A stretch of 64,000 nt of DNA from Clostridium pasteurianum DSM 525 = ATCC 6013 (GTDB lineage Bacteria > Bacillota > Clostridia > Clostridiales > Clostridiaceae). The stretch spans positions 836,384-900,383 of the forward strand of contig NZ_CP009268.1 of NCBI RefSeq assembly GCF_000807255.1. The letters run 5' to 3'. Position numbers and translations under genes: made by a program. A model generated the notes under the pieces. That model ran no database searches. It was not told the origin of the DNA and saw only the letters and a list, made by a program, of their open reading frames with translations. Every line of letters starts with the position of its first letter. The stretch's first letter is position 1. Positions 12,299-44,864 of this stretch are shown one piece after another.

Positions 12299-12432
12299 TC
12301 AACCTGACTAACTTGGCGTAAGTCTCCCCCTTCTTCAAGTGAGAGTTTGACGCCAAGTAAGCCATGCATTTGCAGTTCTAAAATTCAAGATGGGGTAAAA
12401 GAATCCCCACCTGAATTAAGAACTTGCTTCAA
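12299..12432 (+). repeat. Expandable-arm structured repeat, copy A (no inserted subunits)
   Basis: First of four copies in the window. Fixed 5' block CCTGACTAACTTGGCGTAAG; its ACTTGGCGT pairs with ACGCCAAGT in the 3' block. A second long hairpin (GTTCTAAAATTCA...TGAATTAAGAAC, with a GGGG/CCCC core) follows, and the element ends GCTTCAA. Here the central arm is only a CTTCTTCAAG turn. It lies between convergent genes. Confidence 0.85.
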
Positions 12433-14723
12433 TAGTTGCTTATATTTATATAATTTACAGGGAGTTTAGCTTCCTTATCTGCAAAGAGTTCACTCCAATG
12501 ATCCTCTATATAAGGCATATATTCATTAATAGTATCTCTAACAGCTTTAAGGTAAGGTATATAGATATTATCCAGTACTGATTGGTCAAAGTTTAAATGT
12601 TTTAGTTTCCATAGGTCATATTCATTTTCGTTATAAAAATGCATACTTCCAAAATGATAGAATACCAGCATATCATTACCTATATATACTTTCCCATTAA
12701 TATTATGAACATCGTAGTGATTGTTATATACTACATTCCAAGGAGCTGCATTTATTCCAAGGCTATTTTCAATTTTAATTCCCACGAATTTTAGAGGAAC
12801 CTGATCAAGATATTTTTGATCTCCCCATCTTTCATGTTCAGGCTGAGGATTGTCAAAACACCATTCTATACATTTCTTTTTCCACCATGTTAATATTCTA
12901 CGAGTTTCTTTGAGCTTTTTAAATCCTATGAAACCCGCTTGAAATCTTCCGTGTATTCTTTCATAATCATAGTTGTCTCTTTGGGTACATATATAGAAGT
13001 AATATCCTACCCAATCTTTGATGATACGGGAAGGATTTGAGAAGAAGAACAGGTCAGCATCACAGTATATGACATAATCTACATCATAATTATCAAGTAC
13101 GTATTCTACTAATGGAGCTTTCAGAGTCCAGCAGAGTTCAGTTGCAGTTCTGGTCTTTTTACATCTTCTAATTTCCTCATCTTCTAATTTTGGCAAAGGT
13201 ACAAGGGTTACATTTTCAAGTTCCATGTCTTTTAATATGGAGTAAATAAGTTCATCTATGCAGCATATCCACAGATGGAAATTGTTGCCGTTTGTTTTCA
13301 AAGATCTATAGAAAGTAAGTCCCTTTATTAAATAGTCTTTGCTCATAAGGGTACAGAAGTATTTAGTATCATCATCTGCTTTAATTCTATACTCTGAAGG
13401 AAGATACCTATAATAGGTCTGTGCATCGCTTAAAGGCTTTGTTGCGAAGAGCTTATCTAATACGCTGTTGTCAAAATGTTTTACTCTATTAATGCATTCT
13501 CTTATAGTACTTAAATAAGGTATATATATATAATCTTTTATAGTCCTTCTTATATGGATATAATTAAAAGACCATAAATCAAATTCATCAGAATTAAAAA
13601 TGGCTATGGTTGCAAAGTGGAAGACAACAAGCTTCTCTTTTTCTATATATACATAGTCATCCTTTTTATATATATTGTAATCATTGTTATAAACACAGTT
13701 CCAAGGAGCTGCATTTATACCGTAGTTATCAGATACTTTTACACCAGAATACATCTCAGGTACTTTATCCAGATATTTTTGGTCACCAAATCTATCCATA
13801 TTAGGTTCTGGATTTGCAGAACACCACTCAATACATTTACTGCGCCAATAATCAAGACAACTAAGTGCATTAGGGGTATTTTTGAAACCAATAAGGCCTG
13901 CCTGATATTTTCCATACATAGCTTCAACCCACTGAAGATCTCTTTGAAGGCATAAGAATACATCATTGCTGCCCCATTCATCATATATTGCCTTAGGATC
14001 AGAGAAAAAGTATAAATCCGAATCACAATATATTACATCGGGTACTTTATAAGTATCCAATACATATCTGATTAAAGGAGCCTTCAGTGTCCAGCAGTAT
14101 TCGTTAGTTTTTCTGGAAGATTTAATAGATAGAAGGGCAGCGTCTTCTAAATCTTCAACTCTAAAAACATGCAGATTATACAAGTTTAATTTAGATAATA
14201 TATAACAGGCTATAGGATCCATACAGCATACCCATAAATTAAAATTATTTGAGGTATTTTTTAGTGATTTATACAGTGCCAGTACTTTGAAAGTATAATC
14301 CTTACCTGCTACAGTACAAAAATTACAAGAACTATTCACAGCATAATTTACTGGAGGAAACCATGCGGTATTCTCAGGTCTTGAAGCTTCAGCAGGAGGA
14401 GTCCATGGAGTATTCTCAGGCTTTTGGGTTTCGGAAGGAGGAGTCCATGGGGTGTTCTCAGGCTTTTGAGCTTCAGCAGGAGGAGTCCATGGAGTATTTT
14501 CAGCCTTTGGAGCCTCGATCCTTGGAACCTCTTGAACATGAGATTCTCCCGGTCTATCAGCTTGTTTTGCTTCATTAACATTCCCATATTTATTTTCATT
14601 TATTTCAGGAGATTGATTAGGTTTTTTATTAACTTTTTTTCTTTTAACTTTTTTCTTTATATGAGGAGATTCAATGCATTCCAGTAAATATTCATCATTG
14701 AAAATAATTCTTTTCCTAGGCAT
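12429..14723 (-). CDS. Double-domain glycosyltransferase with Pro-rich repeat linker
   Basis: A 764-aa cytosolic protein with two tandem GT-A-type glycosyltransferase domains of the same family. The ATG at 14723 is chosen because AGGTGG lies eight bases upstream; a GTG at 14735 is the alternative. Domain 1 (about residues 130-420) and domain 2 (about 450-750) share FCT..(G/S)KDY, CWTLKAPL, the DxD sugar-nucleotide motif (CDSDLYFF and CDADLFFF), QAG(L/F)IGFK, GDQKYLD and GINAAPWN. Residues 1-60 are very basic. Residues 70-125 contain four 14-aa repeats of the PENTPWTPPAE type. Both domains keep DxD, so both may be active, perhaps adding alternate sugars. The CDP-sugar genes begin 400 bp away on the other strand and may supply the donor. 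Confidence 0.85.
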   Translation of the reverse strand: MPRKRIIFNDEYLLECIESPHIKKKVKRKKVNKKPNQSPEINENKYGNVNEAKQADRPGESHVQEVPRIEAPKAENTPWTPPAEAQKPENTPWTPPSETQKPENTPWTPPAEASRPENTAWFPPVNYAVNSSCNFCTVAGKDYTFKVLALYKSLKNTSNNFNLWVCCMDPIACYILSKLNLYNLHVFRVEDLEDAALLSIKSSRKTNEYCWTLKAPLIRYVLDTYKVPDVIYCDSDLYFFSDPKAIYDEWGSNDVFLCLQRDLQWVEAMYGKYQAGLIGFKNTPNALSCLDYWRSKCIEWCSANPEPNMDRFGDQKYLDKVPEMYSGVKVSDNYGINAAPWNCVYNNDYNIYKKDDYVYIEKEKLVVFHFATIAIFNSDEFDLWSFNYIHIRRTIKDYIYIPYLSTIRECINRVKHFDNSVLDKLFATKPLSDAQTYYRYLPSEYRIKADDDTKYFCTLMSKDYLIKGLTFYRSLKTNGNNFHLWICCIDELIYSILKDMELENVTLVPLPKLEDEEIRRCKKTRTATELCWTLKAPLVEYVLDNYDVDYVIYCDADLFFFSNPSRIIKDWVGYYFYICTQRDNYDYERIHGRFQAGFIGFKKLKETRRILTWWKKKCIEWCFDNPQPEHERWGDQKYLDQVPLKFVGIKIENSLGINAAPWNVVYNNHYDVHNINGKVYIGNDMLVFYHFGSMHFYNENEYDLWKLKHLNFDQSVLDNIYIPYLKAVRDTINEYMPYIEDHWSELFADKEAKLPVNYINISNY

Positions 14724-15129
14724 CTTACTATCCACCTCTCATATGGTATTTTGTACACTGAAAAGTTTTTAATAGAATTTCACAAACTTATTTGCATACC
14801 TTTTATTTATCCTGTGACTGCCAGCTTCAATAGTTAAAGGTAAGTAGTAAAAAAGGCTGTATCACCGGATGATATATTTAAACTCAGTGGAAAAGTATTT
14901 CCACCAAGGAGAATTCAAGTATATTGTCAATATGAAATTTTTATTAATTCAGTTAGTGTGCAATCTTGTCACTGTTACTATATGTTAAAAGGCTTATTAT
15001 AGTGACATCTTAGACAGGTTTTGAAGGATAAAATAATTTACTTAACCAATTAACACAATGGTTTCTATAATCATACTATATTGTTGAGAAAACAATTAAA
15101 ATCTATAAGAAAATTCAGGGGAGATATGT
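14724..15129. promoter_or_regulatory. Divergent intergenic region between the glycosyltransferase and rfbF
   Basis: About 400 bp with no gene. It must carry both divergent promoters. I see a hairpin GTGGAAA-AGTA-TTTCCAC (about 14886-14903) and an imperfect inverted repeat TGTCACT...AGTGACA (about 14967-15007), which may be regulatory. The rfbF ribosome site GGGGAGA is at 15118. Confidence 0.4.
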
Positions 15130-15870
15130 ATGAAGGTTGTTATATTATGTGGAGGAAAAGGCTCTAGATTAGCGTCCCCTACTGAGCATAAGCCAAAGCC
15201 CTTGGCTATGGTTAATGGTAAACCTATCATATGGCATATAATGAAGATATATATGAAATATGGCCTTAATGATTTTATTCTGCCTTTAGGCTTTGGAGGG
15301 GAAAAGATAAAGGAATACTTTTGGAATTACGAATGGAAAAATAAAAATTTTATTAAAGATTATAGTAATAACACTATAAAATTTTTGGATAAACCAGAAA
15401 ATTGGAAGATAACCTTTGTGGATACCGGTGTTGATACCATGACCGGCGGAAGAGTAAAAAAAGTACAAAAATACATCGATGGTGATGCATTTATGATGAC
15501 TTATGGTGATGGATTATCAGATATAAATATTAAAAATCTGATAGACTACCATTATCATAAAGGTAAAATTGCAACGGTAACAGGTGTAGAGAGAAAAAGT
15601 CAATATGGTATTCTAACTGTAGAAAATGGTATTGCTAAATCCTTTGATGAAAAGAGTAAATTAGATGGCATAATAAATGGAGGCTTTTTTGTGCTTAGCA
15701 CTAAAGTATTTGACTATATAGAAGATGATGCAGGCTGCATCTTTGAACAAAAGCCTTTAAAGGCCCTGGCAAAACAGGGTGAGCTTTCTGTATATCTTCA
15801 TAGGGGATATTGGGCATCTATAGACACTTATAAGGATTTAATATCTGCTAATAAGACATGGAAAATTTAG
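15130..15870 (+). CDS. rfbF: Glucose-1-phosphate cytidylyltransferase
   Basis: Catalyses CTP + glucose 1-phosphate to CDP-glucose + PPi, the first step of CDP-3,6-dideoxyhexose synthesis. The 246-aa protein is a Rossmann-like nucleotidyltransferase: the signature GGKGSRL at residues 8-14 is followed by EHKPKPLAMVNGKPI, then the LGFGGEKIKEYF and FVDTG..TMTGGR segments characteristic of RfbF rather than of RmlA or GalU. Length matches the family. A CDP-glucose 4,6-dehydratase lies two genes downstream, which supports the assignment. A terminator-like hairpin follows. Confidence 0.93.
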   Translation: MKVVILCGGKGSRLASPTEHKPKPLAMVNGKPIIWHIMKIYMKYGLNDFILPLGFGGEKIKEYFWNYEWKNKNFIKDYSNNTIKFLDKPENWKITFVDTGVDTMTGGRVKKVQKYIDGDAFMMTYGDGLSDINIKNLIDYHYHKGKIATVTGVERKSQYGILTVENGIAKSFDEKSKLDGIINGGFFVLSTKVFDYIEDDAGCIFEQKPLKALAKQGELSVYLHRGYWASIDTYKDLISANKTWKI

Positions 15871-15890
15871 AGGAAATTTATAAAGAAAAG

Positions 15891-15965
15891 TACACCTTAT
15901 TGAAATTTTAAATGAGCAGGGTGAAGAATAAAAATAGCTTTTTAGAGATAAGGTGTATTTTTTAT
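15891..15965 (+). terminator. Hairpin with T-run after rfbF
   Basis: Arms TACACCTTAT and ATAAGGTGTA followed by TTTTTT, but with a loop of nearly 50 nt. It would separate rfbF from the next gene. Confidence 0.5.
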
Positions 15966-16136
15966 ATATTGTTCTTAATGATATACATTTTTAATGTATT
16001 GATACCAAAGGTTATTCCCTTAAGCTTAATAGATAATTTAAATTTGCAAATAACAACCTGAATACAGTTTTTCATTGGCATTATAAAAGATGCATATATA
16101 TTTAATATATTTTTAAATGCTTTTAGGAGGATAAGG

Positions 16137-17177
16137 ATGGAGGAGTTCAAAGATAGTAAAGTTTTGATAACTGGAGGATTGGGTTTCATTGGTTCTCATC
16201 TGGTAAAGCGTATTTTAAAAGAGGGAGGAAAGGTATTTATTCTGGAAAGAAAAGGTTCCAATCCCTGGAGAATAGGTGAAGTTATAAAGAAGGTTAATAT
16301 TATTGAGGGAGACATATCAAAATTTGAAGATATAAATAAACTAATAAAAAGTATAAATCCAGACTATGTATTTCATCTGGCGGCCTATGGAGTAGATTCT
16401 TCTAAAAAAGAATATAGCGATGCCATAAATACCAATATAATAGGAACTGTAAATGTATTAAATTCTATAAAAGATACTCAGTGTAAAAAGTTTATAAACA
16501 TGGGCAGCTGTGCTGAATATGGCAATAAAAAAGGATTGATGGAGGAAAAAATGTATCTTGATCCCGTAAGTATATATGGCAGCACTAAAGCCTGTTCTAC
16601 TATACTGGCACATCAAATTGCAAGGTTAAACAATATAAATATAGTTACTTTAAGACCCTTTGGAATTTTTGGAGAAGGAGAAGCACCTCATAAGATATTT
16701 TGTCATATAATATTATCACTTATAAAAGGTGAGGATGTAGCACTTACAGACTGTGAGCAGTACAGAGATTATTGTTATGTAGAGAATATAATAGATGGAA
16801 TGGTTTTAGCTGCAAAGAATAATTCTGTGAAAAATGAAATTTTCAATATTGCCAGTGGTAATATACATCAGCTTAAGTACTATGTAAATCTGATATTTGA
16901 AAATATTGATACAGACAAAAAACCTTTATATGGGGCTATACCCTACAGAAAAAATGAAATGTGGGCTCCAAAGGCAGATATTAACAAAATCAAATCTTTA
17001 CTTCATTGGACACCAAAAGTAAGCCTTGAAGAAGGGATTGTTAAAACTATAGAGTGGTATGAGAAGAATAAGAAATTTTATCTTGATACGGATAATCACA
17101 ATACTTCAGGGGATAAAGTTTCTGAAGATGAAGACAGGTCCCTTAAAAATAACGAGAGAGAATCTCATGCTGAGTAA
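16137..17177 (+). CDS. NAD(P)-dependent sugar-nucleotide epimerase/reductase (extended SDR)
   Basis: A 346-aa extended short-chain dehydrogenase. The GGLGFIGSH cofactor loop (residues 13-21) and HLAAYGVD lie in the Rossmann half. The catalytic triad is recognisable as Ser in MGSCAEYG and Tyr147-x3-Lys151 (YGSTK). The C-terminal part has RDYCYVENI and the substrate-domain tail, followed by a charged extension of about 25 residues. Lying between rfbF and rfbG, it probably reduces or epimerises the CDP-4-keto-6-deoxyglucose made by RfbG (abequose/paratose/tyvelose-type chemistry). The exact product cannot be told. The AGGAGGATAAGG site precedes the ATG; rfbG follows after 27 bp, so the two are co-transcribed. 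Confidence 0.85.
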   Translation: MEEFKDSKVLITGGLGFIGSHLVKRILKEGGKVFILERKGSNPWRIGEVIKKVNIIEGDISKFEDINKLIKSINPDYVFHLAAYGVDSSKKEYSDAINTNIIGTVNVLNSIKDTQCKKFINMGSCAEYGNKKGLMEEKMYLDPVSIYGSTKACSTILAHQIARLNNINIVTLRPFGIFGEGEAPHKIFCHIILSLIKGEDVALTDCEQYRDYCYVENIIDGMVLAAKNNSVKNEIFNIASGNIHQLKYYVNLIFENIDTDKKPLYGAIPYRKNEMWAPKADINKIKSLLHWTPKVSLEEGIVKTIEWYEKNKKFYLDTDNHNTSGDKVSEDEDRSLKNNERESHAE

Positions 17178-17204
17178 GATTTATGATTAGGAGATGGTGT
17201 TTAA

Positions 17205-18275
17205 ATGAGCTTACCTTTAAACATATTTAAAAATAAAAATGTTTTAGTCACTGGACATACAGGTTTTAAAGGCTCCTGGCTTTCTATTTGGTTAAGGCAG
17301 CTGGGTGCAAATGTAATAGGCTATGCTTTAGATCCTGTTAATCAGGAGGATAACTTCTCAAGAGCTGGTTTGAAAGATAATATGGTGGATATAAGAGGAG
17401 ATATAAGGGATAGTAGTCTGCTAAATAAGGTTTTTAAGAAATATAATCCTGAAATAGTTTTTCATCTAGCAGCGCAGCCCCTGGTAAGATATTCTTATGA
17501 GCATCCAAAGTATACTTATGAAGTGAATGTAATAGGAACTTTGAACCTTTTGGAAGCCGTAAAAAGCTGCAAGGCCACAAAGGCTGCAATTATAATAACC
17601 AGTGATAAATGTTATGAAAATCAGGAATGGATATGGGGTTATAGAGAGAATGATCCTATGGGTGGGTATGATCCCTATAGTTCCAGTAAAGGCTGTGTAG
17701 AGCTGTTGGTTTCCTCCTATAGAAACTCTTTTTTTAATCCAAAAGAATATGTAAAACACAATAAGGTCATAGCTTCCGTTAGAGCAGGTAACGTAATAGG
17801 AGGCGGTGACTGGTCAAAGGATAGAATAATTCCAGACTGCATAAATGCTTTAAAAGATAATAGGGAAATAGTACTTAGAAATCCTAAAGCAGTTCGCCCT
17901 TGGCAGCATGTGCTTGAACCCTTAGGGGGATATCTTATGCTGGGAGCTGAAATCCTTAGAAACAATACTAAATTTTCTGGTGCCTGGAACTTTGGACCTA
18001 TGGAGGAGAGTATTGTAAGCGTAGAAGAGATTACAGCAAAGGTTATTAAATACTGGGGCACTGGAAGTTATAAAGCTTTAAAGTCTTCTAGTGATTTTCA
18101 TGAGGCTAACCTGTTAAATCTTGATATAAGTAAAGCTAAGTTTAATTTAAACTGGAAACCAAGGTGGAATGTAGATAAAGCCGTTGAAAAAACTGTAGAG
18201 TGGTATAAAAACTATAATAGTACAGATGTGTATAAATTATGTGTAAATCAGATCAATGAATACTGTAGCAAGTAA
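17205..18275 (+). CDS. rfbG: CDP-glucose 4,6-dehydratase
   Basis: Converts CDP-D-glucose to CDP-4-keto-6-deoxy-D-glucose with bound NAD+. The 356-aa protein begins with the family-specific NVLVTGHTGFKGSWLS (residues 13-28), then GYALDPV and IVFHLAAQPLVRYSY. It carries TSDKCYEN, the active-site YSSSK and RAGNVIGGGDW, all typical of RfbG. It is the third gene of the CDP-sugar set and shares a transcript with the SDR. Downstream is a strong terminator (18324). The sugar is probably used on cell-surface glycans, possibly by the neighbouring double glycosyltransferase. Confidence 0.94.
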   Translation: MSLPLNIFKNKNVLVTGHTGFKGSWLSIWLRQLGANVIGYALDPVNQEDNFSRAGLKDNMVDIRGDIRDSSLLNKVFKKYNPEIVFHLAAQPLVRYSYEHPKYTYEVNVIGTLNLLEAVKSCKATKAAIIITSDKCYENQEWIWGYRENDPMGGYDPYSSSKGCVELLVSSYRNSFFNPKEYVKHNKVIASVRAGNVIGGGDWSKDRIIPDCINALKDNREIVLRNPKAVRPWQHVLEPLGGYLMLGAEILRNNTKFSGAWNFGPMEESIVSVEEITAKVIKYWGTGSYKALKSSSDFHEANLLNLDISKAKFNLNWKPRWNVDKAVEKTVEWYKNYNSTDVYKLCVNQINEYCSK

Positions 18276-18323
18276 TTAATCTTCCACCAAAGTGGGAGAT
18301 AAGCTCTGCTTACCCTAAAGGAT

Positions 18324-18370
18324 AACAGATTTCTAAGTATCGGTATCTTGGATACTTAGAAATCTGTTTA
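18324..18370 (+). terminator. Terminator of the CDP-sugar operon
   Basis: 18-bp arms AACAGATTTCTAAGTATC and GATACTTAGAAATCTGTT with a short loop and following T-rich sequence. Confidence 0.75.
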
Positions 18371-18960
18371 TTAAATGAAAACTATATAAGTATTTATATT
18401 TATACCTATGGTAAAAAATGTATAACTAGAGGTATATATAGATTTTTTAAGTATTAATAAGAAAATAGCATATAAATTCAAAAAATAAGATTTATAATAA
18501 CAAGATAATAAATTACAGTAAATTTTTAAATGATTTAGATTAATTATATAATTAATATGACTTAAAATTCCATTTATGTTATATCCGCAATAACAGATTT
18601 TGTCTAAGGATTGTCCAGTCTAATAGGCATATCGCACTTATAAAGGCGATTTATACAAATTAAAAAGTTGGATTTTCTTATGTTTTATATTTGTAAAAGT
18701 ATTTACATAAAATTAAAAAAATATAGAAAAATATGATTATAAAATAATTTATTTTAAAGAATAATTATGTTAAGCGAGGAAAATATATATACTTAAAAGT
18801 TTTATTAGTAAATATAAGAAGTTATAAGTAAACATTTCATAGGATGATAAAAACTCTGTTTATGATTGGCTATTGAATAGATTATGTACTTAGAGATGGG
18901 ATATGAAACAACAGGTAAAATAAAAACTAATAATATAGTATAGACAGAGGTGATAATAAA
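18371..18960. other. Gene-free region upstream of the hybrid kinase
   Basis: About 590 bp, very AT-rich, with no credible frame. Around 18585-18650 is a patch of mixed composition with short complementary pieces (AAGGATTGTCC; CGCACTTATAAAGGCG) that could be structured. I do not recognise a riboswitch. A ribosome site, GAGGTGATAATAA, precedes the next gene. Confidence 0.4.
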
Positions 18961-20520
18961 ATGAAAAATGTTTTGATTGTTGATGATACAAAGGCAAATA
19001 GAATTTTTATAACTGAATGTTTTCATGGGGAAGGTTATGAAGCAAAGGCTGTAGGTAGTGGAAAAGAGGCTATGAAGCTTCTTTTGAAGGAAACTTATAG
19101 ATTTGTAGTTTTGGATGTAAAAATGCCTTTTATAAGCGGAACACAGCTTCTAAAATGGATTAAGGAGAATAATATAGATACAAAGGTGATCATGATTACA
19201 GCCTATGCTACAGTAAAAAATGCCCTTGAATGCATTAATAATGGTGCTATAGATTATATTCAAAAACCCTTTACTACGAATAGATTTAAAAAATTCATAG
19301 GTGATATAGAAAAAAAAATAAAGGGAGAATATATTTTTGGGAGCAGTGCAGGACAGAGAATAGTTGATAATACTTTGGATTTCAGTATTGATACTGAGTA
19401 TGCTGCTGCTGAAAGAATGCCAGATGATGTTATTTCAAGACAGGCAGAAGAGATAATTAAACAGAATACAGTTACCAATCTCTTTGAAATGATTCCCTAC
19501 AGTATTCTTATATTAAATAGCCAGCGTCAGATTGTATATTCTAATTATCATTTTTTTAAATTTATAGGAATAAATTTAGAAGAGCAGGTCCATGGGCTAA
19601 GGCCTGGTGAAATACTCAAATGTGTACACTCCAAGGAGAGAAGCACTGGCTGTGGAACTACAGAACATTGCAGTGTCTGCGGGGCAGTTGATGCAATACT
19701 TGAGAGCCAGGATACAAGGATGCCTGTGAGTCGGGAGTGCTTAATGACACTGGAAAAAAATGATACAATGTCCAGTATGGAACTTTTAATTTATGCCGCA
19801 CCAGCGGGAATGATAGATGAGGATTATACAATTTTGGTTGTAAAGGATATAAGTCAGGAAAAAAGAAGACAAGCTGTTGAAAAGATATTCTTTCATGATA
19901 TATTAAATAGTTCCTGGGCAGTAAAAGGACTTATTAATTGTGTAGAAAAATCTCTATCTAAAGAGCATAAGTCGAGAGAAATCATCGATCATGCTAGTGA
20001 GGCCGCAGATATAATGATAGATGAAATTAAAACTCAAATGGATTTAATGTATGCTGAAAAAGGTGAGCTTAAATTGAATTCATCAACTTTTCCATTGAAG
20101 GCAATTATATCAAGGTTTATTAGGCACTATGAAAGTATATTTGATTGTAAAGTTGATTTAAGGTGTGAAGAGGAGTTTACAGTTAAAACTGATAAAGTGC
20201 TGCTGCTTAGGGTAATAAATAATATGCTGAAAAATGCTCTGGAAGCTTCAGAAAATGAAATGATAAAAGTTACAATAAAAGAAGTTAAGAATTTTATAGA
20301 AATATCTGTAGATAATAAAAAATATATTCCACGGAAGGTGCAGCTTCAAATATTTAAACGTCATTTTTCTACAAAGGGAGAAGGCCGAGGCTTGGGTACT
20401 TACAGCATGAAGCTTATAGGAGAATTTTATCTTAAAGGATACATTAAATTTACTTCAGATGAAGAGAAGGGAACAACATTTATCTTTGGGCTTCCCTATG
20501 ACTCTATGAATAATAACTGA
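18961..20520 (+). CDS. Hybrid receiver-PAS-histidine kinase
   Basis: A 519-aa cytosolic signalling protein. Residues 1-120 form an N-terminal CheY-like receiver (VDD, Asp52 in VLDVKMP, Thr in MITAYA, Lys in QKPF). Residues about 165-300 form a PAS-like sensor with an unusual Cys cluster (CVHSKERSTGCG, EHCSVCG). A phosphoacceptor-like His312 lies in FFHDILN, and the C-terminal HATPase has NNMLKNALEAS and GEGRGLGTYSMKL. The usual DxG of the ATP lid is replaced by VDNKKY, so kinase strength is uncertain. A receiver ahead of the kinase suggests phosphorelay control. No membrane segment is visible. A GGDEF gene follows 42 bp later, so it may control c-di-GMP synthesis. Confidence 0.88.
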   Translation: MKNVLIVDDTKANRIFITECFHGEGYEAKAVGSGKEAMKLLLKETYRFVVLDVKMPFISGTQLLKWIKENNIDTKVIMITAYATVKNALECINNGAIDYIQKPFTTNRFKKFIGDIEKKIKGEYIFGSSAGQRIVDNTLDFSIDTEYAAAERMPDDVISRQAEEIIKQNTVTNLFEMIPYSILILNSQRQIVYSNYHFFKFIGINLEEQVHGLRPGEILKCVHSKERSTGCGTTEHCSVCGAVDAILESQDTRMPVSRECLMTLEKNDTMSSMELLIYAAPAGMIDEDYTILVVKDISQEKRRQAVEKIFFHDILNSSWAVKGLINCVEKSLSKEHKSREIIDHASEAADIMIDEIKTQMDLMYAEKGELKLNSSTFPLKAIISRFIRHYESIFDCKVDLRCEEEFTVKTDKVLLLRVINNMLKNALEASENEMIKVTIKEVKNFIEISVDNKKYIPRKVQLQIFKRHFSTKGEGRGLGTYSMKLIGEFYLKGYIKFTSDEEKGTTFIFGLPYDSMNNN

Positions 20521-20562
20521 TGGGGAATTGATTTTATTTATTATATAAGGTGGTATATAACT

Positions 20563-21792: not shown

Positions 21793-21879
21793 AAATGGCA
21801 GGGTAATTAAAGTATAAAGTTCAAAAAACAAATATCAAATAGGGAAAAGTGCTAGGAGTAAATGTACCTAATAAGTGGA

Positions 21880-21943: not shown

Positions 21944-21952
21944 GATAGATCG

Positions 21953-22687: not shown

Positions 22688-22709
22688 TATATTGATGGAG
22701 GGCTCTCAA

Positions 22710-23429: not shown

Positions 23430-23469
23430 TATTATATTGAAGTATTGATAGTAAAAATTAAGCAAATTT

Positions 23470-23605
23470 CACCTGACTAACTTGGCGTAAGTCTCCCACG
23501 CACTCTGTGAAAGTTGGAGTTCGACGCCAAGTAAGCCATGCATTTGCAGTTGTAAAATTCAGATGGGGTAAAAGAATCCCCACTTGAATTAAGAACTTGC
23601 TTCAA
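23470..23605 (+). repeat. Expandable-arm structured repeat, copy B
   Basis: Same fixed ends as copy A (12299-12432), in the same orientation. The central arm holds only CACGCACTCTGTGAAAGTTG. It sits inside the biotin gene set, between bioD and bioA, so it is likely transcribed with them. Confidence 0.85.
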
Positions 23606-27492: not shown

Positions 27493-28021
27493 TATTATAT
27501 ACCTCCGCTATAAATATAGAAGTTAAAATCTGTTTGTTTTTCTTAAAATTACACATAAATAATCAGATTTCTATAGTCAACTCACATATATTCTACATAA
27601 AATTTAAAAGTCCTCCTTTTTATGTTAGAAAGTGTAAGAAAATTTAATTATTTTAAAATAAATGCTTATTGAAGTAGAAGGATGGAGAAATCTAAAATGC
27701 CGAAGCGGCCATATGCCAAAGCGTTACTGGAAGTATATGACGGAGTTTAAGGATATATAGTTTTATGTTCAGCTAAAATTTTAGGATGAACTTTATGGTA
27801 AAATTAGATATAATATATATTGTTATACTGCATTTTTATAAACAGAGTTCTTAGTATCTGTATTTTTAGATACTTAGAAATCGTTATGCAGGGACGTAGC
27901 AGACATTATCTGCCACTTTGTAGTAGAGGGCTAGAATTTTAATTTTGTGCCAGTACTGTACAGAGAGCAATGACGTATTAGGTCTGGTAGTTATCGGATA
28001 AATTTTTGGGGGTGAAAAATA
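27493..28021. other. Gene-free region between divergent genes
   Basis: About 530 bp. It holds the kinase ribosome site and promoter. A GC-richer patch around 27690-27750 has a 17-codon frame with a GGAG site (see findings). A hairpin around 27850-27885 has arms CTTAGTATCT and AGATACTTAG. About 130 bp of mixed-composition leader follow before the 106-aa gene. No known riboswitch recognised. Confidence 0.4.
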
Positions 28022-29794: not shown

Positions 29795-29875
29795 ATTTTA
29801 CCACCTTAACATTAATTATCACTATTATTTTATACTTTAGATATGAAATTGTTACAGAATATTTCAGATGAATTT

Positions 29876-30110
29876 AACCTGACTAACTTGGCGTAAGTCT
29901 CCCCCGCACGCTGTACAGCCCTCACACAAAATCGAAAAGAAGATTTTGGTTCTCTACTTGCACTCTGTGAAAGTGATTCGCACCAAATTAAAATTTGGGC
30001 TCTCTACTTTTCTTCAAGTGGGAGTTCAACGCCAAGTAAGCCATGCATTTGCAGTTCTAAAATTCAGATGAGGTAAAAGAATCCCCACCTGAATTAAGAA
30101 CTTGCTTCAA
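29876..30110 (+). repeat. Expandable-arm structured repeat, copy C (two inserted subunits)
   Basis: Ends are identical in plan to copies A and B. The central arm contains two subunits of about 50 nt that start GCACGCTGT or GCACTCTGT and end TCTCTACTT, then the TTCTTCAAG turn. It lies between divergent genes. Confidence 0.85.
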
Positions 30111-34490: not shown

Positions 34491-34510
34491 TAATAAATTA
34501 TTTTAAAAAA

Positions 34511-36158: not shown

Positions 36159-36212
36159 GTGATAAGTATTCAAAGAAAAATAATAGATTTTCATGAAGTA
36201 GTAGTTGCTTAA
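36159..36212 (+). CDS. Possible 17-aa peptide before a terminator
   Basis: GTG start at 36159, stop TAA at 36210-36212; peptide MISIQRKIIDFHEVVVA. The stop overlaps the first arm of a strong terminator, a leader-peptide-like layout. The ribosome site (AAAAGG) is close to the GTG. Function unknown; may be chance. Confidence 0.3.
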   Translation: MISIQRKIIDFHEVVVA

Positions 36213-36260
36213 CTGCCAATTAGTTTATTGAAGATAACTAATTGGCGGTTTTAATTTTTT
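36211..36260 (+). terminator. Strong terminator upstream of the MFS gene
   Basis: Arms AACTGCCAATTAGTT and AACTAATTGGCGGTT followed by TTAATTTTTT. There is no annotated gene just upstream except the 17-codon frame, so a short transcript ends here. Confidence 0.8.
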
Positions 36261-36458
36261 GAAAATATTAAAATTTTTATTTCAAATTGGATATATATTA
36301 AATTTAATAAATGATAAAAAAGGTATAACAATATCGTTTTGTATGATGAAACCTAATTGCTTATTATGGTAAAAATATGTTGACTGGAAATAAATGAGAC
36401 GTTATAATTGTAAATAAGGTTATATTTAGTACTGTAGAAAACGATTTCTAACATAAGC

Positions 36459-36499
36459 TATTACAAATACTCCTATTTAAGTTGAATATATTTGTAATA
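36459..36499. promoter_or_regulatory. Perfect 11-bp inverted repeat, candidate operator of the MFS gene
   Basis: TATTACAAATA (36459-36469) and TATTTGTAATA (36489-36499) are exact complements separated by 19 bp, 140 bp before the MFS start. There is no T-run, so an operator is likelier than a terminator. Confidence 0.5.
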
Positions 36500-36640
36500 C
36501 AACTAATGAAAGGTTGAGGTGATAGAAGATTTAAAATTAGATATGAAAAATTTAAATTTATAAATACTTAATAAGGGAGGTATAAAGTTTATTGTATTAT
36601 TAAAATTTTATATCATAGAGAATTTAAGGAGAGATGAATA

Positions 36641-37936: not shown

Positions 37937-37976
37937 CAATTTTTAAAGATATATAAAATAAAAAGTTTATAGCAAT

Positions 37977-38014
37977 AGAATTCCAGAATTAGATAAAGTT
38001 AATTCTGGAATTTT
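37977..38014 (+). terminator. Terminator after the MFS gene
   Basis: Arms AATTCCAGAATTA and TAATTCTGGAATT with a 7-nt loop, then TTTAAGTTTT. Confidence 0.75.
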
Positions 38015-38168
38015 AAGTTTTCAATATTAAAATTTATATTCCATAAAGTGATTATTTATATAATTTTTAATAATTTATGGATTAACCTCTTAGTTTATTA
38101 TATTTATATGTTGAAAAATAACATATATTGTAATAACATAAGTATATAACTATTTTAGAGGGGGAGAA

Positions 38169-39116
38169 ATGACCATGAATAAAATAAGAAAGGCAGTAAT
38201 ACCGGCAGCAGGCCTTGGAACAAGATTTCTACCAGCTACAAAGGCACAGCCAAAGGAGATGCTTCCAATAGTAGATAAGCCTACTATACAGTACATAATA
38301 GAAGAGGCTGTAGCTTCAGGTATAGAAGAAATACTTGTAATTACAGGAAGAAATAAAAGATCTATAGAAGATCATTTTGATAAATCTGTAGAGCTTGAAT
38401 TAGAGCTGGAAACTCATAATAAGCTGGAGCTATTAGCACAGGTAAAAGAAATAACTAATTTAGCAAATATTCATTTCATAAGACAAAAAGAGCCTAGAGG
38501 ACTTGGTCATGCTATCCATTGTGCAAAGAGTTTTGTAGGGGATGAACCCTTTGCAGTAATGCTTGGAGATGATGTGGTAGATGCAAAGGTACCATGTTTA
38601 AAACAACTTATAAATTGCTTTAATGAATATAAAACATCAATCCTTGGAGTACAGCAGGTAGAAAAGGATCAGGTGTCAAAGTACGGAATAGTAAAAAATT
38701 TAAATATAGAAAAAGGTGTTTACAAAGTAAAGGATTTAGTGGAAAAACCAACAATAGAAGAAGCACCATCAAATATAGCTATCCTTGGAAGATATATATT
38801 AATGCCTGATATATTTGAAGTTTTAGAAAGAACTAAACCGGGAAAAGGCGATGAGATACAGCTTACAGATGCGCTTAAGAATCTTTTGGGAAACCAGGCT
38901 ATATATGCTTATGAATTCCAGGGAAGAAGATATGATGTAGGAGATAAATTCGGATATTTACAGGCCACTGTAGAAATGGCATTAAAGAGAGAGGACTTAA
39001 GAGAACCTTTTATGAGATATCTAATTGATCTATCAGATAAAGAAGGCTGGAGAAAAGATAAGAAGAGTAAAGAATATGCCGAAATTGCAGCTGGTAAGGT
39101 AGAAGTAAAAAAATAA
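38169..39116 (+). CDS. galU: UTP-glucose-1-phosphate uridylyltransferase
   Basis: Makes UDP-glucose from UTP and glucose 1-phosphate for glycan and lipid glycosylation. The 315-aa protein has the canonical KAVIPAAGLGTRFLPATKAQPKEMLPIVDKP N-terminus (split here only by my reading), QKEPRGLGHAIHCAK, a MLGDDVVDA metal site and VEKP. The ATG at 38169 and one at 38175 are both possible; GGGGGAG precedes them. Length is normal. It is monocistronic, with a scrap of a Fic gene following. Confidence 0.95.
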   Translation: MTMNKIRKAVIPAAGLGTRFLPATKAQPKEMLPIVDKPTIQYIIEEAVASGIEEILVITGRNKRSIEDHFDKSVELELELETHNKLELLAQVKEITNLANIHFIRQKEPRGLGHAIHCAKSFVGDEPFAVMLGDDVVDAKVPCLKQLINCFNEYKTSILGVQQVEKDQVSKYGIVKNLNIEKGVYKVKDLVEKPTIEEAPSNIAILGRYILMPDIFEVLERTKPGKGDEIQLTDALKNLLGNQAIYAYEFQGRRYDVGDKFGYLQATVEMALKREDLREPFMRYLIDLSDKEGWRKDKKSKEYAEIAAGKVEVKK

Positions 39117-39174
39117 TGTAGTTCACCTTCAGAGTAAAAGGCCTTTATTTCATTATATAATTTTTCCTTTAAAT

Positions 39175-39393
39175 GTGCTATGGTATATGATTGGAATAAA
39201 AAACAATGAAGATCTTTTGGAAAGTGAAGGTATACTTTCTGGATTTAGGCTTGCTCATTTATTGAGGAAGCCTATTATTGATGGGAATTTTGATTTAAAG
39301 CACCCGCAGAAAATACATAAATTTATTTTTCAAGATGAATTTTATCTCATAAGCATAGAAATATTTATAAGGAAAAGCTATAATTGTTTATAA
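39175..39393 (+). pseudogene. Fic-domain protein fragment
   Basis: The translated peptide contains GNFDLKHPQKIHKFIFQDEFY preceded by ESEGILSGFRLAHLLRKP in sense. This is the helix pair found just before the HPFxxGNGR motif in Fic AMP-transferases (compare the usual NFDLDHLKAIHKYIFQDIY). The catalytic HPFxxGN loop and everything after it are missing. No ribosome site is visible. I consider it a decayed remnant. Confidence 0.6.
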
Positions 39394-39440
39394 ATATATA
39401 AATTTCAATTAGTATAATTTAGTTAAAGATGGTGGAATAA

Positions 39441-40889
39441 TTGATTAGCAAATTTAGTTTAATAATTAAAATTATTTTTATAGCTGTTGTATATCTTATA
39501 CTTTTCTTTTCCCTTCGTATAATGTTTAAGGATACAAGGAAGAGTAATAAAGAGCAGCAGAAGGCATACAATGGACCGGACTTTGATGAAGAAGATACTA
39601 TAGTTTCTCACAGAGAGGACACTATAATTAGTGATAGAGAAAAAAATACTGGAATTTTTTATAAAGATTATAGTGAAGCAGATAATAATCGTTATAATAA
39701 TTCTACAGAAGAACAGGAAGAAGCGGTATATTCTCCTTTAATTGACAAGTTAATTGGGATATGTGAGTATGTAGAGGGAATTTACATAAAGCAGCTTAAG
39801 AAAAAGAAAATTATTTCAGATACTAAAAATATAAATAGGGAAAAGAGAAAATATTATAATAGAATAATATATTCACCTATTAATGGTAAAATTTATAATT
39901 CTTATTACAATTATGTGTTTATGAATTTGCTTTTAGTATTGGTAATTACTCTGATTTTTACAGTGCTTTTTACTTCAGAACTTAAATTTCCCTTTAAGCT
40001 TTTAAGTATAATACCTGCAGCAGTATTTTTTCTCTACCTATGTAAACTTTATAATTATCTTTCACCTTTTATTTCCCGTATAAAAGTTCTTAGAAGACAT
40101 CTTATATACATAAATAAGGAAAATTTCAAGGATCCAGTGATTTCACCGGTAGAGGGTATTATATCCTCCTTGAAAGAAGATGAGAATAGCATAGAGATAA
40201 AAACAGCTTTTGGAATCAGACTGTTTATATCCATGAAATATATAAAATCCATTGAAATGCTTGTAAAAGAAGGAGACAAAATAACTTTAGGTGAGGAATT
40301 ATTTAAATTTACTGTAGAAGGAGAAACAAATCCTGTAATGTTTTTCTATATAGGAAGCAATAGAAGCTACAAGATAAAAAGTATAAAACAGATGAACTTT
40401 GAAATCATTCAACAGAATGATGCACTTTTTTTGGCGGAGTGCAGTATTTATGAAGCTTCTCCCATATTAAGGGATGGAGAGGTTATTTCACTTAGCTCTT
40501 ATGTCTATGGAGATAATGAATACAGCAGTAAAATAGTAACTGTGAATGGTACTAATGGTCAAGCACTTATGGAAAATTCAAATGCTATGGGTAAAGAGGA
40601 GAGATTTTTAGTGGTAGGTAGTAAGGATGGAACTGTGTCATTAAAATCTCTTAAGAATACTGCATATGTTGGAGTTAATTTAAGTGAAAAAGGTAAGCTT
40701 TCAGCTAACAGCTTTGAAATAAATAATGCTGAAAAGTTTATTTTTATATGGCAGGAGCAGGGGGCTTATGTCATAATAGCTTTAGCAAATAATAAGGTAG
40801 TTAGTGCGGATATTAATGCTGAGGGAACACTAATGGCAAATCATGATTATATTGGTGCTGCGGAAAGATTTTATATATGGAAACACTAA
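39441..40889 (+). CDS. Membrane protein with EIIA-like and fascin-like beta-trefoil domains
   Basis: A 482-aa protein with a TTG start and AGATGGTGG upstream. Residues 7-28 are a membrane anchor, followed by a long charged stretch; a second hydrophobic pair spans about 153-205. Residues about 230-310 (ISPVEGIISSLKED, IEIKTAFGIRLFI, VKEGDKITLGEELFKF) align with the PTS glucose EIIA/barrel-sandwich fold, but the phosphorylated His of EIIA is replaced in LFISM. Residues about 365-482 (DGTVSLKSLKN-type and KVVSADINAEGTLMANH) resemble fascin-like beta-trefoil repeats seen in carbohydrate-associated proteins. This looks like a sensor or scaffold, not a PTS enzyme. Domain calls are by eye. Confidence 0.6.
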   Translation: MISKFSLIIKIIFIAVVYLILFFSLRIMFKDTRKSNKEQQKAYNGPDFDEEDTIVSHREDTIISDREKNTGIFYKDYSEADNNRYNNSTEEQEEAVYSPLIDKLIGICEYVEGIYIKQLKKKKIISDTKNINREKRKYYNRIIYSPINGKIYNSYYNYVFMNLLLVLVITLIFTVLFTSELKFPFKLLSIIPAAVFFLYLCKLYNYLSPFISRIKVLRRHLIYINKENFKDPVISPVEGIISSLKEDENSIEIKTAFGIRLFISMKYIKSIEMLVKEGDKITLGEELFKFTVEGETNPVMFFYIGSNRSYKIKSIKQMNFEIIQQNDALFLAECSIYEASPILRDGEVISLSSYVYGDNEYSSKIVTVNGTNGQALMENSNAMGKEERFLVVGSKDGTVSLKSLKNTAYVGVNLSEKGKLSANSFEINNAEKFIFIWQEQGAYVIIALANNKVVSADINAEGTLMANHDYIGAAERFYIWKH

Positions 40890-40994
40890 TTGGCAGTGTG
40901 ATTTTTTTAATAATTTTATTAATGAACTTTCAAAATATAAATATAACTAATAATTTAAAAGTACTATTAAAATAATTTGTTATATTTATAATTA

Positions 40995-41042
40995 AACAAG
41001 CTAAAATCTACTATTGTTAACAGTAGTAGATTTTAGCTTGTT
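40995..41042. terminator. Bidirectional terminator between convergent genes
   Basis: Arms AACAAGCTAAAATCTACT and AGTAGATTTTAGCTTGTT, nearly perfect with a short loop, serving the 39441 gene and the minus-strand ATPase. Confidence 0.85.
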
Positions 41043-41063
41043 AGTTCTTTGAACTTTGATATT

Positions 41064-43304
41064 TTAAATTTCCACTGTTTTACTCTGTGAAACTTCACTT
41101 AATGACAATTCTACATTGGATTTACTAGTATAATGTTTTTCGTAGGATCTATAGCATTTAGGAGAAACAAATTTAATTCTCTCATTGAGAATTAATACCA
41201 GTATTGAATTTATAGTATTTAAGGATTTAGCAGTAAAGGGGTTAAAATATCCCCAAAAGGCCAGTGTTCCCAGGGCTATATTATACAATTTAGAAAAGGT
41301 TATAGTCTGTTTGATCATTCCGTAAGATCTTTTAGATAGTGTTATAAAATCCCCAAGGCTTTCTACATTATCATCAAGTACAATACAATCTGAATGAAGT
41401 TTTACTTTATTGCAGGCAGAATTACAAAAGGATACACTTATATCAGCTGCTTTCATTGCTTTAGAGTCGTTTATACCGTCTCCCACCATCATTAAAGTTC
41501 TTCTTTTCTTCATGGAATTTATAACTGTTTCTTTGTCTAAATCGGTACATTCACTGTAGATGTTATTTATTCCTAGTAATTTAGCAGTACTATTGGCTTT
41601 TTCCTCTAAATCTCCTGTTAGAAGTGATATATCTTTAATTCCTGAAGCATTTAACATCTCAATCAATTCTTTAGATCCATCTCGTATAACATCCTTTAAA
41701 GCTAAAAGAGCACAAAGTTTTCCATCAATACTTACTAATATAGGAGTGCAAAGATTTTTTTCAAAATTATAATAGTCTGTTTCAGCTATTCTTGTGTTTA
41801 TATTATTGGATTGCATAAGCTTTATGCTTCCTATGAGTATTTTATGATTTTTAAAGTTTGCTTCAACTCCAGTGGTGGGTATAAAGGCAGCGTTATTTAT
41901 CTTGCTGATATCATAATTTTTAGCCTCACGCTTTAGGGTTACAGCAATGGGATGATAATTATCAAGTTCACAGGCTGCACATATATTTATTATCTCATCC
42001 CTTGAATAGAAGTCGCTATAGAGTTTTACATCTTTTATGCTCATTATTCCCTCTGTTAAAGTACCAGTTTTATCAAAGGCTATACTATTTACATTTATTA
42101 GTTTTTCTAAAGAATTTGGATTTTTATAGTATATTTTATGCCTATGTAAAAGTGAAAAATAATTTCTCATGCCACTGATAAGAGCAGTACTAGAGGCTTC
42201 AGGACATAAAACTAAAAGTATTGACATAGCATTTAAAAGGCTTCCAGTAAATAAGTAGTTAAAAGCGGCTATACCCATAGCCACAGGGGAAGCATTATTT
42301 TGATAACCTATAAGCCTTTTATTTATATACATATTTTCAAATATGGATTCAGCTTTAACAGAAGGCCTTGGAATTTCCAAGACTTTAGCCTTTATGTTCC
42401 CTGAAAGCAAAGTCATTCCTTCATAGGCAGTATTTCCACTTTTTAGTTGACTTACTATTGGCTGACCACTGTAATATAAATTGTTAATAAGGCAGGAGCC
42501 TTCTTCAATAACTATTTTTGCGGGAACTATTTCACCTTTATGTACAGCTATTGTACTACCAATATTTAAAGACTCTGCTGGTATTAAAATTTCACTGTTA
42601 TCCTCTCTAATGAGCCAGCTCATATCGGAATTTTTTCTTGTACTTTGATCTAATTGTCTCATACAATTTACTTCAGCAGACAATTTTATGTATTCACTTA
42701 AGTATTTTAGAAACAATAAAAGTATGCCTTCTGAACTTTCACGCATAATTATGAGAGCTAGCGCAGATAATTTCAATAATATATCCGCATCTGTGGGAAT
42801 ATGTTTTGTAAATCTTTTATAAAAGCTTTTTAAAATAGGATATCCTCCTACAATAGTAACTATAGAGGCTGCCTCTAATACCTTAAGATTAGTATGCAAT
42901 GAAAAATTACCCTGGAAAATCTGTTTTATTTTAAAAGTGATGTAGACAATTCCAGAGGCAATAAGTTTTAATTTTACTTTATCTCTTCTTTCAACTGTTT
43001 CAAAATATCTGTTATAATTTTTTAAATCTCTTCTGCCATTTTGTATTATGGAAGAAAGAGCATTCTTTATATTGTCTTTTATAATTTTATAATCTGATTT
43101 CTTTTCATCATATATAACAAGTATTGTAGAAGCATGTATATTTATTTTGTTGTATTTTACTCCATAGAGATTATCAATATAGATACCTATGTATTTAGCA
43201 AGAGATTTGTCTTTATAAATGCTTTTAGTTTTAAATCTTACACGCCCAGGTAAAACATGTAACTCATGCAAAATTATCACCGCCTGCGATTTTAGAATTC
43301 TCAT
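41064..43304 (-). CDS. P-type ATPase with N-terminal HMA-like domain
   Basis: A 746-aa cation-transporting ATPase. Residues 10-90 (LPGRVRFKTKSIYKD, then ASTILVIYDEKKSD) resemble the divergent HMA_2 domain and lack CxxC. The phosphorylation site DKTGT has Asp411; the TGEx-like actuator is degraded (SGQPIV near 265-270). The N-domain has CELDNYHPIA, a P1B-style HP motif, and the hinge has GDGINDSKAM. The P1B CPx motif appears as LCPEASS in the ion-pathway helix. Predicted helices number about eight. Its start overlaps the stop of the upstream small gene (TAATG). The substrate metal is unknown; the altered actuator and CPE motif set it apart from standard Cu, Zn or Cd pumps. Confidence 0.88.
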   Translation of the reverse strand: MRILKSQAVIILHELHVLPGRVRFKTKSIYKDKSLAKYIGIYIDNLYGVKYNKINIHASTILVIYDEKKSDYKIIKDNIKNALSSIIQNGRRDLKNYNRYFETVERRDKVKLKLIASGIVYITFKIKQIFQGNFSLHTNLKVLEAASIVTIVGGYPILKSFYKRFTKHIPTDADILLKLSALALIIMRESSEGILLLFLKYLSEYIKLSAEVNCMRQLDQSTRKNSDMSWLIREDNSEILIPAESLNIGSTIAVHKGEIVPAKIVIEEGSCLINNLYYSGQPIVSQLKSGNTAYEGMTLLSGNIKAKVLEIPRPSVKAESIFENMYINKRLIGYQNNASPVAMGIAAFNYLFTGSLLNAMSILLVLCPEASSTALISGMRNYFSLLHRHKIYYKNPNSLEKLINVNSIAFDKTGTLTEGIMSIKDVKLYSDFYSRDEIINICAACELDNYHPIAVTLKREAKNYDISKINNAAFIPTTGVEANFKNHKILIGSIKLMQSNNINTRIAETDYYNFEKNLCTPILVSIDGKLCALLALKDVIRDGSKELIEMLNASGIKDISLLTGDLEEKANSTAKLLGINNIYSECTDLDKETVINSMKKRRTLMMVGDGINDSKAMKAADISVSFCNSACNKVKLHSDCIVLDDNVESLGDFITLSKRSYGMIKQTITFSKLYNIALGTLAFWGYFNPFTAKSLNTINSILVLILNERIKFVSPKCYRSYEKHYTSKSNVELSLSEVSQSKTVEI

Positions 43305-43537
43305 TATTCATCTTCAGATGTATTTTCAATATTTGTGATGTGGTTTTTTCTGGAATTTTTAAGAGCTTCCTCACTGACTCCACTGCAAAAGCCGCTAACT
43401 TCATCTTTTATATCTACAGTTTTACTTAAAATATTTACAGCAGCGGATTTAAGATGTTTTTTGTTTTTTGATAGAATTTTACATACTATTATTCCTGCTG
43501 CTGTTCCTAAAAGGAATTTATTAATATTTCTGTTCAT
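43304..43537 (-). CDS. Small membrane-associated protein of the ATPase operon
   Basis: A 77-aa protein with GGAGG seven bases before its ATG. It has a short hydrophobic N-terminus (FLLGTAAGIIVCKIL), then a basic and an amphipathic helical part. Its stop codon overlaps the ATPase start by one base, so translation is coupled. No family recognised; it resembles small YtxH-like single-helix proteins in build. It probably works with the ATPase. Confidence 0.7.
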   Translation of the reverse strand: MNRNINKFLLGTAAGIIVCKILSKNKKHLKSAAVNILSKTVDIKDEVSGFCSGVSEEALKNSRKNHITNIENTSEDE

Positions 43538-43697
43538 ATATGTGCCTCCATATTAAAGTACTTTAAAATTAGATTCAATTTAATTATTGACTAATTTTCA
43601 TATTCTAATAACAAGAGGTTGAATTTTACATATAAACCTTATTTTAAATTCGATACATACAACAAACTCCTCAGGTAATACTAATTATGAAATCATA

Positions 43698-43970
43698 CTA
43701 TTTAAATATCATACGTCTAAAAACTTTTTTGTATATATTTTTGTTACCGCTATTTTCACTAGCCTGAAAAAAATAATCACTTATACCTTTAAGGTAAGAG
43801 GCCCAGGATTCAATGTATTCCTTTTCGCAGTCTGGGTTTGAGTTTATATCCTCTAAAGTGAGTTTTATACAGTCTCTTATGGTGTTTTCTGCACCATCTA
43901 ATTTTTCTTCTAGCATTTTAAAATTTTCTGTTTTAGCAGAAGAATTTTCCTCTAGAACTTTAGTTTTCAT
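43698..43970 (-). CDS. Hypothetical helical protein of the ATPase operon
   Basis: A 90-aa soluble, acidic protein with a basic C-terminal patch (KVFRRMIFK). Start at ATG 43970, with GGAGC upstream. It is predicted all-helical with no membrane segment. No family recognised. It lies 27 bp downstream of the coiled-coil gene and upstream of the small membrane protein on the same strand. Confidence 0.65.
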   Translation of the reverse strand: MKTKVLEENSSAKTENFKMLEEKLDGAENTIRDCIKLTLEDINSNPDCEKEYIESWASYLKGISDYFFQASENSGNKNIYKKVFRRMIFK

Positions 43971-43997
43971 AGGCAGCTCCTTTCATTTAATAGATTT

Positions 43998-44492
43998 TTA
44001 GTGTTGCTCTGCAGCATTAACTTTTCTCTTTTTGCTTTTATATTGTGCTTCTGCAAAAATGTCTTCGGTATTTTCCTTTATATCGTATACACCTTCTATT
44101 GTCTTGTCAGCTACAGTATAAATTCCAGTCAGAGTTCCTACTGCTAATTTTCTAAGAGGGCTTCCTATTAAAGATTTTAAGGAATGACTTCTTCTAGAGT
44201 GATCGCGTCTTCCATCCTCTGAATTAAAATTTGTATTATCCAGTTTTTCAAGTATGCTTCCAATATTTTTGTTGATATTTTCAAAGTCTGAATGCATAGT
44301 TTTTATGCTTTCTTCCATATTGACTTTAATACCTTCCAGTGATTTTATTTCTCTATTTAAGTTCTCATATTTTTCTTCAAGGGATCTTAAGCTGTCTTCG
44401 TATTGAGATGCATTTTTTATTGTGCTATTTTCTTCTATTGTATTTTTACTAGTAATATTTTTATCCTGTTTGTTTTCATTAAAGGTATCCAT
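43998..44492 (-). CDS. Coiled-coil protein, first gene of the ATPase operon
   Basis: A 164-aa protein starting at ATG 44492 with GGAGG upstream. Residues 30-90 form a clear coiled coil (SLRSLEEKYENLNREIKSLE and on). A Ser/Arg/His linker follows, then a moderately hydrophobic amphipathic segment (RKLAVGTLTGIYTVADKTIEGVYD) that could lie on a membrane. No family recognised. It heads the minus-strand set that leads into the P-type ATPase. Confidence 0.65.
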   Translation of the reverse strand: MDTFNENKQDKNITSKNTIEENSTIKNASQYEDSLRSLEEKYENLNREIKSLEGIKVNMEESIKTMHSDFENINKNIGSILEKLDNTNFNSEDGRRDHSRRSHSLKSLIGSPLRKLAVGTLTGIYTVADKTIEGVYDIKENTEDIFAEAQYKSKKRKVNAAEQH

Positions 44493-44524
44493 ATATATCC
44501 TCCATTTAAGTATAATTAAAATTT

Positions 44525-44864
44525 AACTTGACTAACTTGGCGTAAGTCTCCCACGCACTCTGCACAGCTCTCGCACCAAATTGAAATTTGGGTTCTCTGC
44601 TTGCACGCTGTACAGCGAATCACACCAAATACAAAATAAATTTTGTTTTGTCTGCTTGCACGCTGTGAAAGTGATTCGCACCAAATTGAAATTTGGGCTC
44701 TCTACTTGCACTCTGCGAAAGCGATTCACACAAAATCAAAAAGAAGATTTGGGTTCTCTGCTTTTCTTCAAGTAGGAGTTCAACGCCAAGTAAGCAATGC
44801 ATTTGCAGTTCTAAAATTCAGATAGGGTAAAAGAATTCCCACCTGAATTAAGAACTTGCTTCAA
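44525..44864 (+). repeat. Expandable-arm structured repeat, copy D (about four inserted subunits)
   Basis: Longest copy, in the same orientation as A-C. Between the fixed 5' (ACTTGGCGTAAGTCTCCC) and 3' (GGAGTTCAACGCCAAGT) blocks lie about four subunits of 49-56 nt. Each starts GCACNCTGNN, contains a CCAAATT/AATTTGG-type stem and ends TCTNCTT. It sits between the divergent ATPase units. Confidence 0.88.

Follow-up and report, generated by a model that had tools for sequence, protein, structure and literature searches.

High-copy folded repeats are generally regarded as restricted to a single genus or species group. In Streptococcus pneumoniae and S. suis, BOX elements are arranged as boxA-boxB(n)-boxC and occur in 104 to 125 copies per genome (PMC3049150). 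In the Bacillus cereus group, bcr1 to bcr3 are described, in the available parts of the sources, as high-copy intergenic elements (up to 130 copies) resembling miniature inverted-repeat transposable elements (MITEs), with mobility linked to TTTAT motifs and frequent transcription in untranslated regions (PMC6542083, PMC3446304). Clop-1, Clot-1 and Bhal-1 are intergenic structured repeats of 74 to 93 nucleotides (nt) in Clostridium perfringens, C. tetani and B. halodurans (PMC2267715). Here, a repeat was studied that has four copies in a 64,000-nt stretch of C. pasteurianum DSM 525 (contig NZ_CP009268.1, positions 836,384 to 900,383), hereafter the window. An initial annotation of the window had described these copies as a structured repeat whose central arm grows by subunits of about 50 nt. 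The repeat belongs to a large and apparently uncatalogued family of small folded elements that joins a BOX-like modular build to an unusual breadth of distribution, bcr1 and Clop-1/Clot-1/Bhal-1 being known to us by description. It is probably a nonautonomous mobile modular repeat that would work like BOX without being a member of BOX.

The likeness to BOX is one of architecture. Both are small intergenic repeats with fixed ends, a variable number of modules of about 45 to 50 nt, a predicted folded RNA and modules that also occur alone (PMC3049150); in the present family, fixed ends enclose 0 to 4 internal modules across 97 copies. BOX of S. suis has two kinds of ends around the same boxB module, like the two types of element, types 1 and 2, distinguished below (PMC3049150). 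However, terminal inverted repeats and target duplications have been reported for BOX, and neither was found here (PMC3049150). BOX has been found in few streptococci, whereas the present family extends to at least 24 genera in a single family and to genomes outside it. The repeat can be likened to bcr1 to bcr3 in the traits given above; by description only, these differ in being specific to the B. cereus group and in having no modular unit arm reported in the parts of the sources available (PMC6542083, PMC3446304). The sizes of Clop-1, Clot-1 and Bhal-1, also compared by description only, would fit part of the present frame, that is, the element apart from its units (PMC2267715).

Architecture, copy number and folded structure

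The four window copies, all of type 1 and on the plus strand, were read directly at the positions where the initial annotation had placed them, with slightly wider limits. Copy 1 (12297 to 12432, running from TTTCA to GCTTCAA with the flanking TTT and terminal AA counted) has no unit. Copy 2 (23467 to 23605) has no full unit and carries at the arm tip a half unit, GCACTCTGTGAAAG, which is the first half of one unit. Copy 3 (29873 to 30110) has two units, of 54 nt (29906 to 29959) and 50 nt (29960 to 30009), and copy 4 (44522 to 44864) has four, of 48 nt (44555 to 44602), 55 nt (44603 to 44657), 50 nt (44658 to 44707) and 56 nt (44708 to 44763). The subunit numbers first given, 0, 0, 2 and about 4, thus stand for copies 1, 3 and 4, and the half unit is to be added for copy 2. 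Each copy starts with TTT(A/C)A-CCTGACTAACTTGGCGTAAG, with slight differences in copies 1 and 4, and has the paired ACGCCAAGT, the linker GCCATGCATTTGCAG, the right hairpin GTTCTAAAATTCAG...CTGAATTAAGAAC and the end CTTGCTTCAA. The helices described as common to the copies, ACTTGGCGT/ACGCCAAGT and the GTTCT...AGAAC hairpin, are present in all four. The linker block GCCATGCATTTGCAGTT was found four times against 0.15 matches expected by chance. When whole elements were folded, copies 1, 2 and 4 gave z scores of -5.2, -3.9 and -3.3, beating every dinucleotide shuffle, and copy 3, of which the right part alone was folded, gave -2.3.

A genome-wide search, which the initial annotation had proposed, was made with a 28-nt pattern allowing up to 3 mismatches and identified 130 type-1 copies, 63 of them in forward and 67 in reverse orientation; the reversed pattern gave no match anywhere in the genome. 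Statistics for this genome rest on the copies that were listed and fetched. Boundaries and unit numbers were taken from 97 copies, 95 from this genome and 2 from a genome of the same genus (G003). Across this set, the inner length of the arm is quantised in steps of about 52 nt, in agreement with the proposed expansion by whole units: 39 copies have no unit, 22 have one, 30 have two, four have three and two have four. It had also been proposed that orientation be compared with the direction of replication. The GC skew of fetched stretches places the origin close to 0 and the terminus at about 2.05 Mb; on this basis, 61 of the 104 located copies are codirectional with the leading strand, which is not a significant bias (p = 0.095). 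The mixed orientation removes the initial argument from orientation and leaves the remainder of that reading unaffected. Adjacent copies tend to share an orientation (69 of 103, p = 0.0007), and density is uneven, with 60 of the 104 copies lying between 0.5 and 1.5 Mb and almost none from 3.5 to 4.35 Mb.

Covariation was scored over 38 left domains of type-2 elements, mostly one per genome with several from G003. Type-2 elements, to which one relative in the window and probably a second belong, read TTTATC(C/T)GATGACTA...CTCTGTTTAT or ...CATTGATA. Their left-domain structure comprises 38 pairs in six helices, with 94.9% of cells paired and 18 pairs changed on both sides; it was partly read from the scored sequences, which favors the paired-cell figure and not, to this degree, the double changes. 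The covariation score was 0.261, against 0.097 ± 0.007 for shuffled sequences and at most 0.052 with slid partners. In the stem adjoining GACTA, sequence turnover between lineages is nearly complete and pairing is kept, with double changes in six of seven pairs. Within the unit, the foot pair (C-G or T-A) and the inner pair (A-T or G-C) also covary (Fisher p values of 1e-13 and 1e-7 in this genome and 7e-7 for each outside it, all inflated by relatedness of the sequences). A tandem or chance repeat was ruled out by the linker-block estimate, the copy number and this covariation.

The strong covariation over six helices and the conserved linkers would also suit a conserved functional or regulatory RNA, kept in many copies for its structure in transcripts, for example as a terminator, attenuator or processing site. 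All four window copies are intergenic, as first claimed, as are 89 of 95 copies in this genome; the other 6 overlap an open reading frame (ORF). Copy 2 does lie in a biotin gene set: its neighbors, both on the plus strand, are a dethiobiotin-synthetase-like gene (Pfam AAA_26) on one side and a class III aminotransferase gene on the other, presumably bioD and bioA. Against such an RNA, no preferred gene context was seen: upstream and downstream neighbors were same/same in 35 cases, opposite/opposite in 29, divergent in 16 and convergent in 14 (flanking genes being ORF-based calls from greedy selection, not curated annotation). Furthermore, copies are nested in another repeat and unit number is free to vary from 0 to 4, and we regard this explanation as quite improbable. 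A known RNA family was rejected: the window gave no Rfam match at the gathering threshold, and six loci searched up to E = 1 gave one unrelated weak match. The possibility raised at the outset of a match to a catalogued element was thus not borne out against Rfam, and no description of this repeat family in clostridia was found in a literature search that covered few subscription papers.

Boundaries, insertion sites and mode of movement

In flank logos of the 97 copies, conservation sets in sharply at TTT and stops at TTCAA. The left boundary is TTT in at least 99% of copies, then A or C, then A; the right boundary is TTCAA, and the flanks beyond are random except that the adjacent base is T in 77% of copies. 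A T-rich pentamer precedes the element, TTTAA or TTTCA in type 1 and TTTAT in type 2, and right ends across the types read TTCAA, TTTAT or TTGAT. The A or C at position 4, which may belong to the target or to the element, is associated with an internal base (p = 0.007) and with unit number at p = 0.056. The element-end motifs are TTTATCCGATGACTA and AAGAACTCTGTTTAT. No terminal inverted repeats were found, the ends TTTMACCTGAC and GAACTTGCTTCAA not being inverted repeats of one another, and no target-site duplication was seen in the flank logos or at paralogous empty sites.

These empty sites come from an unrelated repeat of about 93 nt, repeat B, in which three copies (L002, L003 and L056) are nested at one position and may derive from a single insertion. 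Uninserted repeat B reads ATATTTTGAATCATAC or ATATTTTTAATCATAC. The empty site is ATATT-TTGAA-TCATAC or ATATT-TTTAA-TCATAC, and the filled site is ATATT-TTTCA-CC...TTCAA-TCATAC; as the empty site holds one pentamer, no target duplication has occurred. Repeat B itself is near-palindromic (ATATTTTGAATC...GGAAACAGGTTC...GATAGTGAGCTATC...) and hosts nested insertions of the BOX-like element. It was seen in this genome (L106, L108, L111, L113 and others) and in G003 (L107, L109 and others). Two genomes of the genus each had at least 40 scored copies; in three others no copy was found.

The initial view of the repeat as MITE-like and at the same time a modular structured RNA is essentially upheld by the covariation, the quantised arms and the paralogous empty sites, except that this is no classical MITE: it has neither terminal inverted repeats nor a target duplication, and the fetched Y1_Tnp loci, the one insertion-sequence family searched, do not have its ends. 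As a BOX-like mobile repeat, the element could work as follows. A frame of left outer helices and a strong right hairpin would insert directly after TTTAA or TTTCA in type 1 and after TTTAT in type 2, with no inverted repeats at its termini and no duplication of the target, its ends probably being recognized as folded single-stranded DNA by a putative trans-acting enzyme. The arm of the frame holds 0 to 4 copies of the ~50-nt hairpin unit, and units would be gained, lost and homogenized within a genome via slippage or by recombination or gene conversion between copies. A copy inside a transcript, probably including copy 2 between the biotin genes, would give a multiarmed RNA that may influence neighboring transcripts.

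A more specific possibility, which we consider unlikely though worth stating, is a miniature element of the IS200/IS605 group moved by a Y1 (HUH) TnpA, an enzyme that recognizes subterminal hairpins of single-stranded DNA and directs insertion to the 3' side of a fixed pentamer. Miniature elements of this group and REP/REPIN sequences resemble the present element in lacking target duplication, in inserting at T-rich pentamers and in having subterminal hairpins. The absence of inverted repeats and the pentamers themselves (TTTAA/TTTAT on the left; TTCAA/TTTAT/TTGAT on the right) fit this explanation. TTGAT, ATTAT and TTTAT are the motifs after which group A IStrons insert (PMC4227781). In G003, the left end of an IS605-type element begins TTTAA-C; its inner hairpin, TCTCCCATCTTCTATAAGAGGGAGAT, looks similar to ACTCCCATCTTCTATAAGTGGGAGAT of a 0-unit element. 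However, no resident Y1 transposase examined has the ends of the present element, and the absence of significant replication-strand bias would also count against such a mechanism. The left-end motif was not found within 1.5 kb of RAYT-like Y1 genes in the genomes examined, as would be the arrangement of REP and its REPtron. A group A IStron, which ends 3' in TCAG (PMC4227781), was rejected, the present ends being TTCAA, TTTAT or TTGAT with no Rfam match to a group I intron.

Several observations weigh against a BOX-like mobile repeat. No transposase bearing the element's ends was found among the Y1_Tnp loci fetched (6 in this genome, 3 in G003 and 29 in 12 other genomes), and neither G203, a complete genome with at least 16 copies, nor G018, with many copies, gave a Y1_Tnp match; the loci and G203 also count against the IS200/IS605 explanation. 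The empty sites are paralogous, not orthologous, and no movement was observed. Covariation and conserved unpaired motifs are equally expected of a functional RNA. Near absence from phages, plasmids and viral contigs gives no help in explaining the wide spread: queries of either type had no blastn match in phages or plasmids at E 1e-5, and of 12 viral pattern matches, L324 is a remnant of the element whereas the others resemble chance matches in coding sequence. Spread by phage or plasmid was rejected on these results.

Distribution and homogenization of the units

The element is not peculiar to this genome: its family is widespread in the host's family and occurs occasionally outside it. A blastn search with copy 1 (152 nt) gave real matches in one same-genus genome only, G003. 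Its two type-1 copies, the only ones there, flank a substrate-binding-protein gene in an ABC sugar-transporter cluster (L040:7800-10500), and horizontal transfer of this cluster from the present lineage is suggested rather than demonstrated. With a longer query, G003 was found to have its own diverged family, with frames about 74% and units about 86% identical. A covariance model, R1, was built from copies of this genome and G003 (130 positions with 16 base pairs, mostly sequence). It matched 90 of 208 genomes of the host's family, representing 24 of 46 genera, often with at least 16 copies per genome at 110 to 149 bits; copy numbers in other genomes are lower bounds. Across the phylum, 11 of 399 genomes had matches, the present genome included, with both types represented. 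G252 and G628 carry a near-exact type-1 element as in the window, type-2 elements without units occur in several families, and the matches in G522 (a lone unit) and G585 (a ribosomal RNA [rRNA] leader) are doubtful. A match in G020 (L037) was judged to be due to chance. One architecture, its helices maintained by compensatory changes, is present in roughly half of the genera in a large clostridial family as well as in other Bacillota and matches no Rfam model. By comparing members of the family, one can approach the questions of how BOX-like elements move and how modules multiply and become homogenized.

Units are more alike within a genome than are the frames that carry them. In the 16 copies of G203 that best matched R1, units are 99.4% and frames 88.7% identical, compared with 95.2% and 86.6%, respectively, in G003; for single elements of different genomes, units are 84.0% and frames about 84% identical. 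As the G203 unit differs from the model consensus, selection by match should not produce this homogeneity. Near-identical units in differing frames indicate that units have spread separately or have been converted. A bolder proposal, toward which we remain doubtful, is that the ~50-nt unit is a folded module that is mobile or infectious in its own right, separately from the frames, which would serve as its landing sites; it would spread between frames of different lineage within a genome, stay near-identical and be able to insert at unrelated sites, for example in the guide-RNA-like 3' region of a TnpB gene. One lone unit of about 50 nt does lie immediately 3' of a TnpB gene, within a guide-RNA-like region, in a Halanaerobiales genome (L244:2631-2751, minus strand). 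Compared with a close relative that has no unit (L245, TnpB 91% identical), this locus has an insertion of about 56 nt between CAAGTTCT and CCAAAGGC. Separately, a frame-free unit-like hairpin was noted near a methyltransferase-like gene (L232, reverse-complement position 1449), and another in an rRNA operon leader (L236:247) may be due to chance.

A type-2 and a probable type-2 relative in the window, and an additional hairpin

Two relatives on the minus strand of the window had been overlooked in the initial annotation. The first is a type-2 element (TTTATCCGATAACTA ... GAACTCTGTTTAT) with one decayed unit at 27838 to 28002, where R1 matched 27881 to 28002 (63.9 bits, E 8e-12). The second, at 1942 to 2066, is a probable type-2 element with a TTGATA right end and no unit; R1 matched 1993 to 2067 (19.4 bits, E 0.045), and the candidate is backed by the right hairpin, the TTGATA end and a folding z score of -5.3. 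As these diverged relatives are on the minus strand, the claim that all copies face the same way is wrong even inside the window, as it is for the type-1 copies genome-wide. A further weak match at 18599 to 18713 (18.5 bits) was judged unconvincing on inspection. In some type-2 elements (L151, L153, L164, L169, L177, L337 and L338), the right arm contains a second, optional module that forms a hairpin (...CCTAAAGGATAACG..TTCTAAG hairpin AAGAA..CTGTTAATAAG...), so that both arms are modular.

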